34,156 nucleotides of DNA from Oscillospiraceae bacterium (lineage in GTDB: Bacteria; Bacillota; Clostridia; Oscillospirales; Oscillospiraceae), in assembly GCA_017436785.1 (NCBI GenBank), contig JAFSCK010000002.1:1-34156 (forward strand), read 5' to 3'. Position numbers and translations under genes: made by a program. The notes under the pieces are model-generated. The model saw only the letters and a list, made by a program, of their open reading frames with translations. It searched no databases and had not been told where the DNA came from. Below are positions 6,035 to 29,138 of this stretch, one piece after another. Positions within the stretch are counted from its first letter, which is position 1. Every line of letters begins with the position of its first letter.

Positions 6035-6124
6035 TGTCATTGCGAGGAGGGCAAAGCCCGACGTGGCAATCTTCTCTGTCGATGGGGATTGCCACACCAG
6101 TGTGCGCACTGGCTCGCAATGACA
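6035..6124. repeat. TGTCATTGCGA-family element between DUF1836 gene and hflK
   Basis: TGTCATTGCGAGGAGGGCAA opens and CACTGGCTCGCAATGACA closes. Both halves hold their own hairpin (GGGC/GCCC; CCAGTGTGCGCACTGG). It starts 31 bases upstream of the hflK ATG and ends 9 bases after the DUF1836 stop. Confidence 0.85.
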
Positions 6125-9172: not shown

Positions 9173-9257
9173 TGTCATTGCGAACCAGTGCGCACACTGG
9201 TGTGCAATCCCCTGAATTGAAAGAGATTGCCACGTCGCTTCGCTCCTCGCAATGACA
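9173..9257. repeat. TGTCATTGCGA-family element between parB and serS
   Basis: TGTCATTGCGAACCAGTGCG opens, CGCTCCTCGCAATGACA closes; the left half holds CCAGTGCGCACACTGG. The element fills nearly all of the 119-base gap. No T-box leader for serS was seen. Confidence 0.85.
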
Positions 9258-10619: not shown

Positions 10620-10851
10620 TGTCATTGCGAACCACTGCGCCCGCAGGCGCGTACAGAGCGCAACCGCCGAAGGCGGCTCTTAGCGCGTCGTAGTCCGCAG
10701 ACTGGTGTGGTGACCGAAGGGAATGCCCGTGGTGCAATCTCCTCCGGCATTCCGGAAACTTAAGGAGATTGCCACGTCGCGTATTCTATTGTGCGATTGC
10801 CACTGGCAATCGTTCATCCAGATTCGCTACGCTATGCTCCTCGCAATGACA
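10620..10851. repeat. Enlarged TGTCATTGCGA-family element between serS and mscL
   Basis: Outer ends are TGTCATTGCGAACCA and CTCCTCGCAATGACA, as in the short copies, but the unit is 232 bases, over twice as long. The left arm is interrupted between AACCA and GTCCGCAGACTGGT by about 60 GC-rich bases with their own hairpins. The right arm is interrupted between GCCACGTCGC and CTCCTCGC by about 45 bases, including a GATTGCCACTGGCAATC palindrome. It appears to have gained inserts in hairpin loops. Confidence 0.75.
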
Positions 10852-21676: not shown

Positions 21677-21794
21677 GGCGCAAAGTGACGAAAATTAAGA
21701 ACTCTTTGGAGGCAGTTTCCATAAGGTTGGATAAGTGTCCATGCGGGGTGTATGGTTGTCCTTATGCAATATATAGACAATGCGCAAAAGCAAA

Positions 21795-21961
21795 GGCTTC
21801 CCCCGGGGGGAAGCTGGCTGCCCGAAGGGCAGACTGATGAGGAATGCGGGCGGTAATGCTGCGATTTGCACAATGTTCCAGACCTGCTCATATGTCGCAA
21901 CTGCACGCCACCCCTCATCCGTCACGGCTTGCGCCGTGCCACCTTCCCCCCGGGGGAAGGC
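21795..21961. repeat. CTTCCCC/GGATGAGG-family element upstream of dnaA
   Basis: GGCTTCCCCCGGGGGGAAGC opens and CTTCCCCCCGGGGGAAGGC closes. Next to them lie variable short hairpins (GCCC-GAA-GGGC; CACGGC-TTGC-GCCGTG), each followed by a GATGAGG box. The core (GAATGCGGGCGGTAATGCTG) is shared with copies at 26786 (inverted) and 28969. Confidence 0.88.
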
Positions 21962-23846: not shown

Positions 23847-24956
23847 ATGCGTTTTACCTGTGAAAAAAGCATGCTGGTAACGGGCCTGAATATTGCAGGC
23901 CGTGCCGTGGCTCAGAAGAGCAGCCTTAGCGTTATTGAGGGCATCCTCTGCAAAGCCGGTCTGGGGCTGAGCCTCACCGGTTATAATATGGAGACTGCCA
24001 TCACCTTTGATATCGAAGCCGAGGTCACGGATCCCGGCCAGTGCATCCTGCCTGCAAAGCTCTTTGGCGATATCGTCCGCCGGCTGCCGGAGGGTCCTGT
24101 CACCGTGGTGGTAGACGAGGACTTTAAGGTCTCCATCCGGGCAGGCTACGCCTCCTTCACCATTTCTGCCGAGTCTGCCGATGACTATCCCGAGCTGCCG
24201 GATGTCAATTCCGGCCGTCCCATCCGGATCCCTCAGAACAAGCTGAAGGAGCTGATCTCCGGCACCATTTTCGCCGTGTCCGAAAATCAGGGCCGCCCCA
24301 TTCACACCGGTGTCAAATTTGAAGTTACCAACGATTCCATCACCACCATCGCCGTGGACGGCTTCCGCCTTGCCCGCCGGACCTACCATCCCGAGGAGGG
24401 CACAACCCGGGAGCTGAGCTTCGTAGTACCTGCCGCAGGACTGAAGGAAGTGGAAAAGATCGTCACCGACTGCGACGATATGGCCTCCTTTACCCTTGGC
24501 ACCAAGCATATCCTGTTCCAGATCGGCACTGCCACTCTGGTCTGCCGCCTCTTAGACGGTGAATTTCTGGATTGGCGGAGAGTGGTGCCCACCAACTGCC
24601 CCATCAAGCTGGTGGCCCATGTTTCCGACCTTGCTTCTTCCGTTGAGCGCGTGGGCCTCATCGTTTCCGAAAAGTATAAGAGCCCGGTGCGCTGCGTCTT
24701 CAGCCACAACGAGGTGCTGATGCGGACCTCCACCACCATCGGCGCCGCCGAGGATAAGTGCGCTCTGGCCGGTGACGGCAAGGAGCTGGAGATCGGCTTC
24801 AATGTCCGCTACTTAGCCGATGCCCTGAAGGCCATCCCCTCCGAGGAAGTTACCTTGGAGCTGACCAACGGCTTAAGCCCCATCGTCCTGACCCCTGTGG
24901 ATGACAAACACGATTTCGCCTACATGGTCCTGCCTGTTAGAATCAAGAACGGTTAA
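23847..24956 (+). CDS. dnaN: DNA polymerase III beta sliding clamp
   Basis: The ring-shaped clamp that tethers the replicative polymerase. The protein has 369 residues, the normal length, with three repeated clamp domains. It starts MRFTCEKSMLVTGLNIAGRAV and ends in the conserved YMVLPVRIK, part of the polymerase-peptide pocket. AAAGGAA precedes the ATG. Transcription may continue from dnaA or start within oriC; I could not assign a clear separate promoter. A TGTCATTGCGA element carrying a nuclease gene has come between dnaN and the S4-protein gene. Confidence 0.97.
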   Translation: MRFTCEKSMLVTGLNIAGRAVAQKSSLSVIEGILCKAGLGLSLTGYNMETAITFDIEAEVTDPGQCILPAKLFGDIVRRLPEGPVTVVVDEDFKVSIRAGYASFTISAESADDYPELPDVNSGRPIRIPQNKLKELISGTIFAVSENQGRPIHTGVKFEVTNDSITTIAVDGFRLARRTYHPEEGTTRELSFVVPAAGLKEVEKIVTDCDDMASFTLGTKHILFQIGTATLVCRLLDGEFLDWRRVVPTNCPIKLVAHVSDLASSVERVGLIVSEKYKSPVRCVFSHNEVLMRTSTTIGAAEDKCALAGDGKELEIGFNVRYLADALKAIPSEEVTLELTNGLSPIVLTPVDDKHDFAYMVLPVRIKNG

Positions 24957-24979
24957 AGGTTAAAAATGTAACGATAAAC

Positions 24980-25422
24980 TGTCATTGCGAACCAGTCCGC
25001 AGACTGGTGTGGCAATCCCCAGAATAGGAGAACAGATGGAATATTACGTATATATGATGTCTAATACACACAGAAAAGTGTTGTATACGGGGATAACCAA
25101 TGATTTGATACGCAGAGTGTACGAACATAGAAATCATTTGGATAAAGGCAGTTATACGGACAGATACAATGCAGAATGTCTGGTATATTATGAATCTACA
25201 TCAGATGTAAGAGCAGCCATTGAACGGGAAAAACAAATAAAGGGCTGGAACAGAAAAAGAAAAGATAAATTAGTGGAAAGCAAAAATCCCAATTGGGTCG
25301 ATTTATATGAAATGATCCTGTAAATGGATGAGATTGCCACACTACTTAAGCGGACTAGCTCGCAATGACATCATTTACGAAGGGGATTGCCACGCCAGTG
25401 TGCGCACTGGCTCGCAATGACA
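24980..25422. mobile_element. TGTCATTGCGA-bounded element carrying a GIY-YIG nuclease gene
   Basis: The left end, TGTCATTGCGAACCAGTCCG...ACTGGTGTGGCAATC, is the same hairpin arm as in the gene-less copies. The right end, GATTGCCACACTACTT...AGCTCGCAATGACA, closes at 25370. A further complete right arm (GATTGCCACGCCAGTGTGCG...CTCGCAATGACA) follows to 25422. Between the ends lies one small AT-rich gene. The unit fills the dnaN-S4 gap. No target-site duplication could be made out. Confidence 0.7.
25036..25323 (+). CDS. GIY-YIG domain nuclease
   Basis: A 95-residue single-domain GIY-YIG endonuclease of the UPF0213/YhbQ type. The motif appears as YVY (residues 4-6) and YTG (17-19, LYTGITNDLIRRVYEHR). 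The conserved Arg is at 26 or 27, and the metal-binding Glu lies within AIEREKQIKGW (63 or 65). The C-terminal KNPNWVDL is typical. AGGAGA lies before ATG 25036. An in-frame extension to 24985 would translate the repeat and is rejected. Base composition is clearly more AT-rich than all neighbours (AAA, ATA and TAT codons), so it was probably acquired. It sits inside a palindrome-bounded unit. It could be the mobilising enzyme of that repeat family or a passenger. Confidence 0.9.
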   Translation: MEYYVYMMSNTHRKVLYTGITNDLIRRVYEHRNHLDKGSYTDRYNAECLVYYESTSDVRAAIEREKQIKGWNRKRKDKLVESKNPNWVDLYEMIL

Positions 25423-25441
25423 CCATTTTAGGAGATTATTT

Positions 25442-25687
25442 ATGAAAGTTGTTGTCAAAAAGAAGGACAATTCCATTCCCGTATCCATCAGCACGGAATA
25501 TATCAAGCTGCAGGATGCCATGAAGTTTGCCAACATCGTCTATTCCGGCGGCGAGGCCAAGGCTCTGATCCAAGAGGGCGAGGTCAAGGTCAATGGCGAA
25601 GTTTGCACCATGCGGGGCAAGAAGCTGAGAAACGGCGATAAATTTGAATTTATGGGTCAGGTGTACCTGATCTCCTACCATTCATGA
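25442..25687 (+). CDS. yaaA: S4-domain RNA-binding protein of the YaaA type
   Basis: An 81-residue S4-like RNA-binding protein found between dnaN and recF throughout Firmicutes (yaaA in Bacillus). The S4 core is visible as IKLQDAMKFANIVYSGGEAKALIQEGEVKVNGEVCTMRGKKLRNGD. Its exact role is unsettled; ribosome association has been proposed for homologues. TTAGGAGA lies before the ATG. Its stop overlaps the recF start in ATGA (25684-25687), so the two are translationally coupled. Confidence 0.92.
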   Translation: MKVVVKKKDNSIPVSISTEYIKLQDAMKFANIVYSGGEAKALIQEGEVKVNGEVCTMRGKKLRNGDKFEFMGQVYLISYHS

Positions 25688-26784
25688 ATTTAGAAAAACT
25701 GGAGCTGCGGTCCTTCCGCAATTACGAGGAGGCCGCCATTGAATTTGACCCCGGCGTGAATCTCATTGTGGGCGACAATGCCCAGGGGAAAACCAACCTG
25801 CTGGAGGCCATTGCCTACCTCGGCTCGGGAAAAAGCTTCCGTGCCCAGAAAACTTCGGAAATGGTCCGATTTGGGGCGGATTTCGCGGAAATTCAGGGGC
25901 AGATCTTTGCCCAGGAGCGAAATCAGATTCTGCGCTACCTGCTGTTCCCCGGCTCCCGGCCCCGGCAGATCTTCCGAAACGGTGCCCGAAAAAAGTCTGC
26001 CTCGGAGTTATCCGGAGTGCTGCCCACGGTGCTGTTCTGCCCGGAGGATCTGCTGATCCTGAAAATGGGTTCCTCTCAGCGCAGAAGATTCGGTGATCTG
26101 GCGTTATGTCAACTGAGGCCAAATTATGATGCTGCCCTGACGGAGTATCATAGAATTTTGGACCAGAAAAGCAGGATCCTGAAGGACCGGTTTGAAAATC
26201 CCGCCATCGCTGCCATTTTGCCGGAATACAACCTCCGGCTGTGTCAGGTGGGCGCTCTGCTGATCTCCTACCGGGCAAGGTTTTATGAGGGACTGGAAAA
26301 AAGCGCCGCAAAATTCCACAGCCAATTTTCCGGAGGTGTGGAAAACTTCCGGCTGGAATACAAGACCGTATCCACCGTCACGGACCCCTTTGCCCCGGTG
26401 GCCAAGCTGACGGAGCAGCTGCTGGACCACCTGCAGCGCCACGAACGGGCGGAGCTGGAAACGGCCCAGTGCCTCACCGGTCCCCACAAGGACGATTTCA
26501 CCGTGGCCTTAAACGGCATTGACCTGAAGGCCTACGGCTCCCAAGGCCAGACCCGCACCAGCGCCATCAGCTTAAAATTGGCCCAGCGGGAGCTGATGGC
26601 CCGGGAATGGGGCGAGGAGCCGGTGCTCCTCTTAGACGACGTGCTTTCCGAGCTGGACCCGGGACGGCAGGACTTTGTCCTGAACCAGATCGTGTCCGGT
26701 CAGGTCTTCATCACCTGCTGCGAACCCGGAAGGTTTACCAAGCTGGGAAAGACAATTGAAATCAAACAAGGCAACGTAATTTAA
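25684..26784 (+). CDS. recF: DNA replication and repair protein RecF
   Basis: RecF is an SMC-like ATPase that with RecO and RecR loads RecA at gaps. The protein has 366 residues. Walker A is GDNAQGKT (30-37), in the family context VNLIVGDNAQGKTNLLEAIAYLGSGKSFR. The C-terminal Walker B/signature region reads PVLLLDDVLSELDPGRQDFV. The start overlaps the S4-protein stop. A palindromic element begins 2 bases after the stop. In Bacillus remB (yaaB) lies between recF and gyrB; here it has moved to after rnhA. Confidence 0.97.
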   Translation: MNLEKLELRSFRNYEEAAIEFDPGVNLIVGDNAQGKTNLLEAIAYLGSGKSFRAQKTSEMVRFGADFAEIQGQIFAQERNQILRYLLFPGSRPRQIFRNGARKKSASELSGVLPTVLFCPEDLLILKMGSSQRRRFGDLALCQLRPNYDAALTEYHRILDQKSRILKDRFENPAIAAILPEYNLRLCQVGALLISYRARFYEGLEKSAAKFHSQFSGGVENFRLEYKTVSTVTDPFAPVAKLTEQLLDHLQRHERAELETAQCLTGPHKDDFTVALNGIDLKAYGSQGQTRTSAISLKLAQRELMAREWGEEPVLLLDDVLSELDPGRQDFVLNQIVSGQVFITCCEPGRFTKLGKTIEIKQGNVI

Positions 26785-26785
26785 A

Positions 26786-26955
26786 GCCTTCCCCCGGGGG
26801 GAAGGTGGCACGGCGAAGCCGTGACGGATGAGGGATGGCGTGCAGTTTCAAGTCTGGAATAGGTCTGATATGTTGTACAAATCGTAACATTACTGCCCGC
26901 ATTCCTCATCAGTCAAAAATCAAAGATTTTTGACAGCTTCCCCCCGGGGGAAGCC
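26786..26955. repeat. CTTCCCC/GGATGAGG-family element between recF and gyrB
   Basis: GCCTTCCCCCGGGGGGAAGG opens and CTTCCCCCCGGGGGAAGCC closes. The same core as the copies at 21795 and 28969 is in inverted orientation (GGATGGCGTGCAGTTTC ... TACTGCCCGCATTCC). The right small hairpin is TCAAAAATCAAAGATTTTTGA. Confidence 0.88.
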
Positions 26956-27012
26956 TTAGGCGCTGCCGCGCCAATATGTTTTATAGTTATCGCATAATTT
27001 AGGAGGACAACT

Positions 27013-28941
27013 ATGTCTGACGAAACGAAAGTAACACAGGAATACGGCGGTTCTCAGATCCAGGTCCTGGAGGGCTTGGAGGCTGTTCGGAAGCGCCCCG
27101 GTATGTATATCGGCTCCACCTCGGCCAGCGGCTTGCACCATCTGGTCTATGAGATCGTGGACAACTCCATCGACGAAGCGCTGGCAGGCTACTGCAAGCA
27201 CATTACCGTCACCATCAACCCCGGCAACTCCATCACCGTCACCGACGACGGCCGCGGCATCCCCGTGGACATCCAGCCCCAGACCGGCAAGCCCGCTTTG
27301 GAGGTCGTGTTCACGGTGCTCCATGCCGGTGGTAAGTTCGGCGGCGGCGGCTATAAGGTCTCCGGCGGCCTTCATGGCGTTGGCGCATCCGTTGTAAACG
27401 CGCTTTCCGAGTGGCTCACCGCCCGGGTCCATAAGAACGGCAACATCTACGAAATGAAGTTCGCCCGGGGTCACATCACCCAAGAAATGAAGATCGTAGG
27501 CAAGACGGAAAAAACCGGCACCGAGGTCACCTTCCAGCCGGATCCGGAGATGTTCGATACGCTGGTTTACGACTACGAGATCCTTCACGAGCGTATGCGG
27601 GAGGAGGCCTTCCTAAACGCGGGCCTGTCCATCACCATCACCGACAACCGGCAGGCTGACGACATTTCCGAGACCATGTGCTACGATGGCGGCATCAAGG
27701 AATTTGCAGTCTGGTGCAACCGGAACAAGAACGCCCTGCACAACGACATCATCTACATGCACGGCATGAAGGGCGATGCTTCCGCGGAAATTGCCATCCA
27801 GTATAACGACGGCTACAACGAATTTTTGCTGAGCTTTGCCAACGACGTCCGCACCCCCGAGGGCGGCATGCACGAGACCGGCTTCAAGACGGCCCTGACC
27901 CGTGTCCTCAATGCCTACGGCCAGAAAAACGGCATCATCAAGGGTGATGACAAGGTTTCCGGCGAGGACTGCCGGGAGGGTATCACCGCCATCATTTCCG
28001 TCAAGCTCACCGATGCCCAGTTTGAGGGCCAGACCAAGGCAAAGCTGGGCAATGCCTACATCCGTACGCTGGTGGATCAGATCGTCAACGAGCAGCTGTC
28101 CGTCTACTTCGAGGAGCATCCCCAGACTGCCAAGGCCATTCTGGAAAAGGCCATGATGGCCAACCGGGCCAGAGAAGCTGCCCGGAAGGCCCGGGAATCC
28201 ATCCGCCGGAAAACCGGTCTGGAATCCGGCCAGATGCCCGACAAGCTGCAGGACTGCAACGAGCGGGATGCCTCCCTGTGCGAAATCTACATCGTCGAGG
28301 GTGACTCCGCAGCGGGCTCTGCCATTCAGGGTCGTGACTCCCGGTTCCAGGCAATCCTTGCCATGTGGGGCAAAATGCTGAACGTGGAAAAGGCAAGAGC
28401 CGATAAAATTTATGGCAACGACAAGCTGTATCCTCTCATCGTGGCGCTGGGTGCCGGCATCGGCGAGGAATTTGACATCGAGAAGCTGCGCTACCACAAG
28501 GTCATCATCATGTCCGATGCCGACGTGGACGGCGCCCATATCCGTACCCTGCTTCTGACCTTCTTCTTCCGCTACATGCGGCCCCTGATTGAAAACGGCT
28601 ACGTCTACTCCGCTGTGCCCCCCCTGTATAAGCTGACCCGGGGCAAGACCGTTCGGGTCGCTTACTCCGACGAGCAGCGTGACGAGATCTCCGCCGAGCT
28701 TCGTGGCGACAATCCCAACACCAAGGTCCTCATCAACCGCTTCAAGGGCCTGGGCGAAATGGATGCCCACGAGCTGTGGGAGACCACCATGGACCCCGAA
28801 AAGCGGACCCTGCGCCGCATCACACTGGAGGATGCCCGCCGTGCCGATGCCATCTTCACCGTCCTCATGGGCGAACAGGTGGAACCCCGGAAAGAATGGA
28901 TCGAGAAGAACGCAAAGTACGCGGTGAATATTGATATTTAA
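27013..28941 (+). CDS. gyrB: DNA gyrase subunit B
   Basis: The ATPase subunit of gyrase. The protein has 642 residues, the short Gram-positive form without the proteobacterial insert. The GHKL ATPase domain shows EIVDNSIDEALAGYC, DDGRGIPVD and GGLHGVGASVVNALS. The Toprim domain has the catalytic Glu429 in EGDSAAGSA and the acidic pair Asp502 and Asp504 in MSDADVDGAHIRTLLLT. Two normally near-invariant stretches are altered: EGDSAGGSA reads EGDSAAGSA, and PLRGKILNVEKA reads AMWGKMLNVEKA. The ribosome site AGGAGG precedes the ATG. The call is GyrB rather than ParE because of its place in the replication cluster with gyrA. Confidence 0.96.
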   Translation: MSDETKVTQEYGGSQIQVLEGLEAVRKRPGMYIGSTSASGLHHLVYEIVDNSIDEALAGYCKHITVTINPGNSITVTDDGRGIPVDIQPQTGKPALEVVFTVLHAGGKFGGGGYKVSGGLHGVGASVVNALSEWLTARVHKNGNIYEMKFARGHITQEMKIVGKTEKTGTEVTFQPDPEMFDTLVYDYEILHERMREEAFLNAGLSITITDNRQADDISETMCYDGGIKEFAVWCNRNKNALHNDIIYMHGMKGDASAEIAIQYNDGYNEFLLSFANDVRTPEGGMHETGFKTALTRVLNAYGQKNGIIKGDDKVSGEDCREGITAIISVKLTDAQFEGQTKAKLGNAYIRTLVDQIVNEQLSVYFEEHPQTAKAILEKAMMANRAREAARKARESIRRKTGLESGQMPDKLQDCNERDASLCEIYIVEGDSAAGSAIQGRDSRFQAILAMWGKMLNVEKARADKIYGNDKLYPLIVALGAGIGEEFDIEKLRYHKVIIMSDADVDGAHIRTLLLTFFFRYMRPLIENGYVYSAVPPLYKLTRGKTVRVAYSDEQRDEISAELRGDNPNTKVLINRFKGLGEMDAHELWETTMDPEKRTLRRITLEDARRADAIFTVLMGEQVEPRKEWIEKNAKYAVNIDI

Positions 28942-28968
28942 TAATGCACTGGTGCGGCAGCACCCAAA

Positions 28969-29138
28969 GGCTTCCCCCGGGGGGAAGCTGTCATGAATCT
29001 TTGATTCATGACTGATGAGGAATGCGGGCAGTAATGTTGCGATTTCTGCTCTGTATCAGACCTCCTTTTGGTCAGAACTGCACGCCACCCCTCATCCGTC
29101 ACGGCTTACGCCGTGCCACCTTCCCCCCGGGGGAAGGC
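28969..29138. repeat. CTTCCCC/GGATGAGG-family element between gyrB and gyrA
   Basis: Same outer hairpins and core as 21795 in the same orientation. The left small hairpin here is TCATGAATC-TTT-GATTCATGA; the right is CACGGC-TTAC-GCCGTG. The gyrA frame is open through it but translation is not supported. Confidence 0.88.

Follow-up and report, generated by a model that had tools for sequence, protein, structure and literature searches.

A small GIY-YIG nuclease as the probable partner of GTC-tagged palindromic repeats in many bacterial phyla

Why should a small nuclease gene lie between hairpins of a kind that recurs nearby, in pairs, around no gene at all? The question is raised by positions 24980–25422 of a 34,156-nucleotide stretch of DNA from an Oscillospiraceae bacterium (GenBank assembly GCA_017436785.1, contig JAFSCK010000002.1, positions 1–34,156; hereafter the window), where a 95-residue GIY-YIG gene is flanked by inverted hairpins beginning TGTCATTGCGA. 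A preliminary description of this DNA had proposed that the nuclease mobilises the palindromes. Our reading, to which we assign a probability of roughly 0.6, is that the product of this gene serves a large family of GTC-tagged (CGTC-type REP) repeats as their dedicated enzyme, gene and hairpins together forming the full element and the hundreds of hairpin doublets with outward tags being its gene-less derivatives.

Comparison of the translated open reading frame (25036–25323) with Pfam identified a GIY-YIG domain (PF01541, E 2.3e-15), which, together with the hairpins on both sides, bears out the description of this locus as a GIY-YIG gene within a TGTCATTGCGA palindromic element. PF01541 was the only Pfam match of the protein at 0.001, with no Y1 domain found, and NCBIfam yielded no model for it at the same threshold. 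Residues Y6, Y17, G19, R27, H31, E65 and N84 are invariant in a 35-row alignment and include those usually named catalytic in GIY-YIG enzymes, the conserved Tyr, Tyr, Arg, His, Glu, Asn set of the domain being present in the family of the window protein. The left and outer right hairpins are 90% complementary over 41 nt, and the inner right hairpin folds no better than its shuffles (Table 1). Searches of positions 24900–25500 against Rfam (no known RNA family up to E 1), of two of the proteins against defence-system models (none at 0.001) and of 50,697 phage records for phage carriage (no match at 1e-5) were all negative. The gene had also been called clearly foreign, but its composition gives this no support: a G+C content of 34%, against 55%, does not demonstrate foreign origin, because at all 127 of 127 family loci with enough flank the nuclease gene has a lower G+C content than the flanking sequence, and we discarded composition as evidence of foreign origin.

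Table 1. Features of the window: the nuclease locus, the gene-less doublets and the neighbouring genes.
Feature	Position	Strand	Remarks
Gene-less doublet, left end TGTCATCGCAA	4884..4981		TGTCATTGCGA-type hairpins; no such hairpin at the site in 11/11 congeners
Gene-less doublet	6035..6124		z -6.7; TGTCATTGCGA absent in the 3 of 11 congeners with both flanks aligned
Gene-less doublet	9173..9257		z -4.8; no such hairpin in the 8 of 11 congeners with both flanks aligned
Longer gene-less doublet	10620..10851		TGTCATTGCGA absent in the 6 of 11 congeners with both flanks aligned
dnaN (context)	23847..24956	+	Pfam DNA_pol3_beta domains
Left hairpin, TGTC-ATTGC..(inner stem)..GCAAT-CCCC	24980..25020	+	single-stranded DNA fold -9.7 kcal/mol, z -3.3
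GIY-YIG nuclease gene, 95 aa	25036..25323	+	PF01541
Inner right hairpin, degenerate	25326..25370	-	z +0.55
Outer right hairpin	25378..25422	-	-10.4 kcal/mol, z -2.1
S4-domain gene (context)	25442..25687	+	Pfam S4_2
recF (context)	25684..26784	+	Pfam RecF/RecN/SMC N-terminal domain; name recF taken from the preliminary description
gyrB (context)	27013..28941	+	Pfam DNA_gyraseB

The 11-mer TGTCATTGCGA occurs 339 times in the 3.05-Mb assembly (166 forward, 173 reverse), compared with no occurrence of its reversed control; with at most one mismatch it is found 10 times in the window, against 0.63 expected and a highest count of 3 in 100 shuffles. Among the 100 of these 339 places that were listed, 76 ends belong to doublets of 85–232 bp (median 127 bp) with their tags outward. 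Four gene-less doublets lie in the window, and their hairpins are, as had been proposed, the same as those that flank the nuclease gene. At matching sites in congeners, G034 has an ATTCC-type match within a 694-bp gap at the site of 6035..6124, and G056 holds an ATTCC/ATCCT doublet, of the same general kind, at the site of 10620..10851. The window's genome has three GIY-YIG matches: the gene of the window, a second that is 53% identical and lies inside a different hairpin pair (TGTCATCCTGAGC..GAAGGATC), and a third that is less similar and carries no hairpins. The two closest nucleases of this genome therefore have different hairpins, ATTGC versus ATCCT, and a low-copy enzyme gene between hairpins is found there together with many gene-less doublets. 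At the L022 and L027 loci and at C22 of the window's genome, hairpins of the family are interrupted by a different insert of ~40–50 bp, in which letters such as CGTTTACGCTC and GAGCGTTATGCAGAGC occur and which is possibly another small mobile repeat.

Pairing of gene and hairpin extends well beyond this genome. Flanks of 150 bp were searched with a strict motif, GTC followed by a perfect 5-bp stem starting A[TC], with controls offset by 1 kb. For 28 gene pieces of the genus with at least 50% identity, a hairpin was found upstream in 24, downstream in 22 and on both sides in 20, compared with 0 of 25 offset controls on each side; these are counts of pieces, in which both halves of the broken copies L050 and L116 are included and the halves of L054 fall in different identity groups. 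None of the 11 pieces below 46% identity was flanked by a hairpin, and one of the 10 control windows in this group contained one. Scanning a species-genome collection with a 14-row alignment gave at least 579 confirmed places, the best 80 of which were analysed; in the 76 of these with enough flank, hairpins were present upstream in 58, downstream in 60 and on both sides in 48 (offset controls, 1 and 4 of 65). Inverted repeats sought without any motif between 200-bp flanks scored at least 15 in 39 of 79 loci from the same best 80; the 1-kb offset gave 0 of 66, and swapping partners between loci gave 47 of 785. The offset, swapped-partner and less-similar-gene controls make chance flanks very unlikely.

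Pooling these data gave 131 distinct loci, comprising the window's locus, genus loci, 76 of the best 80 of at least 579 places in the genome collection and 8 of 33 plasmid records, after removal of pieces with stops or shorter than 85 aa, duplicates and genus matches below 46%. A GTC-tagged hairpin lies within 200 bp of the gene in 125 of them and on both sides in 92, which shows that relatives of this subtype mostly carry such flanks, as the initial proposal would predict. The genome-collection part of the pool contributes 71 loci with a hairpin out of 76, and these represent 23 of the 25 named phyla. Some features of the pool count against the partner reading: the strict hairpin is missing on one side or both in 39 of the 131 loci, and among the 92 two-sided loci both hairpins are reversed in 13, while in 11 the two point the same way. 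Six loci have no strict hairpin on either side (L148, L180, L186, L195, L200 and L207), and the motif-free search found imperfect ones in L148 and L195.

To a large degree the stems are paired and matched. Near the genes, 243 of 333 (C/T)GTCA(T/C) sites are followed shortly downstream by the complement of their own stem; with stems taken from other sites the number is 18.6 on average and 30 at most. Stem letters vary and yet stay paired; the stem is selected as a stem. There are 24 different five-letter stems, dominated by ATTGC, ATTCC, ATCCT, ATTCT and ATCCC, and paired sites begin with AT in 235 of 243 cases and with AC in 8, under a search that admitted only A[TC]. Left and right stems are equal in 54 of the 92 two-sided loci (shuffled mean 22.5, maximum 34); they are unequal in the other 38, which counts against the partner reading, and in many of these 38 the difference is a paired change, for example ATTCT versus ATCCT.

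Nuclease and stem have also diversified together. On a 131-row protein tree (97 columns; 69 of 128 inner branches open), the 106 rows that fall into three stem classes require 22 changes of class, against 39–53 after shuffling. Restricting the count to the 60 rows from the genome collection (best 80 of at least 579) and the plasmid records gave 15 changes against 20–31, host kinship being only reduced in this count because the rows include Oscillospiraceae of the genome collection. One row merits separate mention: L203, on a plasmid of Planktothrix agardhii, encodes a relative 66% identical to the window protein; its neighbours are MmeI and drmA genes, one on each side, and hairpin doublets form an array around it. 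Its position on the tree, among CT-class loci of other phyla, is weakly supported and suggests transfer between phyla together with the hairpin type.

Repeat numbers follow the matching nuclease. Across the genus, the 16 genomes with an ATTGC-type nuclease hold a median of 51.5 copies of TGTCATTGCGA, compared with 3 in the 45 genomes without (p 2.0e-5); the former group includes G034, with a broken copy, and G018, with an ATTCC hairpin downstream and no adjacent ATTGC one, and leaving out both gives p 1.9e-5. Copies of TGTCATCCTGA have a median of 22 in the 8 genomes with an ATCCT-type nuclease and of 2 in the 53 without (p 4.5e-4). G013, whose broken copy has no hairpin, was placed in neither nuclease group. 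Cross tests of copy number against the non-matching nuclease showed no effect (p 0.32 and 0.87). Cognate pairing, co-diversification and correlated copy number thus support a partnership of nuclease and hairpin like that of RAYT and REP. This is the part of the initial proposal that stands; that the nuclease moves or cuts the palindromes is kept here as conjecture.

RAYT is a Y1/HUH transposase associated with a GTAG tag. Judged by the accessible part of the literature, the system described here resembles RAYT/REPIN in having few enzyme-gene copies between hairpins, many gene-less doublets and cognate specificity, but differs in that the enzyme is a GIY-YIG protein paired with a GTC tag, with no Y1 (HUH) domain found in Pfam at 0.001. 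The repeats themselves recall the CGTC-tagged REP superfamily, which, in the accessible part of its description, spans 5 phyla and has no dedicated transposase (Di Nocera et al. 2013, PMC3733652). These REPs are described there as having an unpaired CGTC, TGTC or CCTC tag, a single stem of 8–9 bp that starts with AT, a loop of 4–5 nt and a short unpaired tail, as occurring mostly as HH dimers, and as including Neisseria dRS3 and the repeats of A. lipoferum and S. meliloti (PMC3733652). As far as that text can be compared, the likeness lies in the TGTC tag of the window hairpins and the (C/T)GTC of the 243 paired sites (which the search required), in the predominant AT start of the stems near GIY-YIG genes (235 of 243) and in the genera of Neisseria, A. 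lipoferum and S. meliloti, which also yield the gene beside such repeats here. The tags-outward doublets found at 76 of the 100 listed TGTCATTGCGA ends may correspond to the published HH dimers. The differences are that the gene adjoins such repeats in 23 of 25 named phyla (best 80 of at least 579 places), against the 5 phyla given there for the repeats, and that the window hairpin has two stems, an outer one of 5 bp and, beyond an internal loop, a second that varies, rather than a single stem of 8–9 bp. Because of this two-part stem, the window repeats appear related to, and not strict members of, CGTC families 1–4 as the available text presents them. The Azospirillum hairpin has a stem of 8 bp and a 4-nt loop.

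The preliminary description knew of no established account of such a transposition system. Titles and abstract openings yielded no publication on the nuclease–hairpin pairing, the accessible text of PMC3733652 contains GIY-YIG 0 times, and a term search of the accessible text of PMC12306157 and PMC6006769 found no mention of it. The claim holds less well for the repeats, which resemble published CGTC REPs (PMC3733652), and for Neisseria, considered below.

In N. gonorrhoeae, a GIY-YIG gene 44% identical to that of the window lies among GTCATTCCCGCG..GGGAATC repeats (GTCATTCCCGCGCAGGCGGGAATC). Ssn, a site-specific single-stranded nuclease of Neisseria, is reportedly a GIY-YIG protein whose target repeat is present in hundreds of copies; its published role is said to be the modulation of transformation, along with use as a tool, and it is not known to include mobility or a link to CGTC REPs. 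The window family shares with Ssn the GIY-YIG domain and the conserved Tyr, Tyr, Arg, His, Glu and Asn. The gonococcal relative may be Ssn, which would tie Ssn to the nuclease family, and part of the pairing may therefore already be known. YhbQ/UPF0213 proteins (PDB 1zg2, 1ywl) belong to the same fold family by sequence profile, but differ in that those GIY-YIG genes of the genus that are less similar to the window's, putatively YhbQ-like, are without hairpins.

This Neisseria case leads to a different explanation, which we regard as unlikely: the protein would be a host or self-serving single-stranded DNA nuclease, and the repeats would be the sites it recognises, for example in limiting DNA uptake, as is said of Ssn, the repeats multiplying by other means and accumulating because they confer this function. 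The gonococcal gene among its repeats would fit such a role, as would the low copy number of the nuclease, at most 3 per genus genome and never multiplied like its repeats, and the six genomes with 44–643 TGTCATTGCGA ends in which no matching nuclease was found (G002, 98% complete, G005, G028, G029, G032 and G051); the last two observations also count against the partner reading. A recognition system of this kind is harder to reconcile with a gene that is itself bounded by repeats at unrelated sites and that is patchily distributed, with matches at E 1e-5 in 33 of the 61 genomes of the genus (less similar genes and the window's genome included) and at E 1e-15 in 19 of 250 genomes of the family and 6 of 398 of the phylum (the window's genome counted each time).

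Matching sites in relatives bear on a further possibility. Relatives lack the gene, and likewise the gene-less doublets, at corresponding sites, as seen for the Azospirillum gene and for the window doublets in congeners. In Azospirillum lipoferum, the gene and two hairpin doublets separate sufB from sufC; neither gene nor hairpin is present at this site in three relatives at 94.7–96.5% identity and a fourth at 91.5%. Other gene-free sites hold palindromes: that of Sphingobium TomTYG64 has one palindrome GTC-tagged on both sides (GTC..GAC), those of TomTYG74 and TomTYG72 have an imperfect version and another palindrome, respectively, that of Sinorhizobium C101 has one hairpin whose two sides carry CTC and GAC, respectively, and two Planktothrix plasmids with the same left neighbour carry three doublets and no gene. 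The TomTYG64 palindrome looks as if the left and right hairpins had fused upon gene loss (L235; also L234 and L237), and the TomTYG64, TomTYG74 and C101 sites are possible deletion footprints. Because the TomTYG64, C101 and Planktothrix sites hold hairpins or doublets, they are explained equally well by recombination that removed the gene and by its gain. A search for target-site duplications and clean junctions in Azospirillum, Sphingobium, Sinorhizobium, Planktothrix and the congeners found none, the junctions being too diverged. Both points count against the partner reading.

Such sites would also be expected if the gene were a homing-type parasite living off REPs that were already there, with a product that cuts the repeat, with repair copying the gene in through palindrome homology, and with something else behind the spread of the repeats. 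The hairpins at the TomTYG64 and C101 sites and the gene-free doublets of the Planktothrix plasmids agree with this idea, but the corresponding site is free of such hairpins in the four gene-free Azospirillum relatives, and repeats are more numerous where the matching nuclease is present, which together make homing improbable. That short intergenic gaps simply gather hairpins and small genes with no functional link, as the other palindrome families and other small genes in the dnaN–S4 gap of congeners might suggest, is highly improbable in view of the offset controls, the hairpin-free less similar GIY-YIG genes, the tracking of stem type on the tree and the matching of copy number.

The surroundings of the window gene were described as a dnaN–S4–recF cluster into which it had inserted; Pfam agrees with the identities of the neighbours, and the gene fills the dnaN–S4 gap. 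An S4 match was present in 57 genus genomes, and among the 30 S4 loci that were read the gap holds the nuclease gene in the window only, gaps of 12–66 bp being found in 13 of the 30; G011 is one further genome with the gene in this gap. The dnaN–gyrB neighbourhood is occupied elsewhere in the genus too, since seven congeners carry the gene in the recF–gyrB gap (one copy broken). In all, nine genus copies lie within this stretch, seven in the recF–gyrB and two in the dnaN–S4 gap (L031, L034–L036, L039, L040, L048, L050 and L094). The seven recF–gyrB copies and that of G011 thus make the neighbourhood an old home of the gene or a favoured one, and the clustering may reflect either inheritance or a preference for the stretch.

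Other genes in the genus are likewise associated with palindromes. DUF559 genes (PF04480) are present in 31 of 61 genomes, in up to 4 copies (L257–L286; L090 in the dnaN–S4 gap), and lie between matching palindromes, for instance AAAGCCTTCCCC..GGGGAAGG or CCTCCCTTGTGTAAAGGGAGG, at 14 of 26 loci with usable flanks, compared with 29 of 249 swapped partners; four of 30 loci had been dropped for short flanks, and some gene limits are mislocated. Palindromes of the kind associated with DUF559 occur in the window at 21791–21816, 26782–26807, 26931–26956 and 28965–28990. This is a second, unrelated gene–palindrome pairing, and it hints that several unrelated nucleases drive the spread of hairpins. 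In the dnaN–S4 gaps of L074 and L085, RAYT-like Y1 transposase reading frames (PF01797 for L074) lie beside a TGTAGGG..GACCCC palindrome, and palindromes starting with TGTAGGG are frequent in the window (822, 3803, 12852, 15401 and 32986). With GIY-YIG, DUF559 and RAYT-like genes in the dnaN–S4 gaps of congeners, three unrelated enzymes therefore occupy one gap in different congeners.

Returning to the GIY-YIG enzyme as partner of the GTC-tagged repeats, our best reading from these comparisons is that it would be the missing partner of the CGTC REPs, in a RAYT–REPIN-like arrangement built on another nuclease fold. For cleavage, the strand used and the route of integration, we infer a scheme in which the repeat would fold as a single strand during replication or DNA uptake, the GIY-YIG protein would read the unpaired GTC tag together with the AT-N3 stem and nick there, and the freed or broken hairpin DNA would be copied or joined elsewhere by host repair. 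GIY-YIG enzymes hydrolyse DNA and do not join ends, so the insertion step must, unlike that of HUH transposases, fall to the host. The gene-less doublets would be the non-autonomous form, as in REPINs. A wider proposal, which we hold tentatively and at somewhat less than even odds, is a mobility system spanning many phyla: hairpin doublets would spread by way of host repair under the action of a hydrolytic GIY-YIG nuclease rather than a transposase, and every nuclease lineage would read stem letters of its own. Such a system would supply both the missing CGTC-REP enzyme and a second, independent solution to the RAYT–REPIN problem.

The CGTC REPs were, in the accessible part of their 2013 description, left without a dedicated enzyme (PMC3733652), and their origin becomes open to direct testing once a cognate nuclease accompanies them in many phyla. 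The nuclease family links the dRS3-like repeats of Neisseria with those of gut and candidate-phylum bacteria, and its matched nuclease–stem pairs would form a natural set of candidate hairpin-specific cutters. If movement by the enzyme is true, transposon-like spread would need no more than a nuclease that lacks joining chemistry to drive it.
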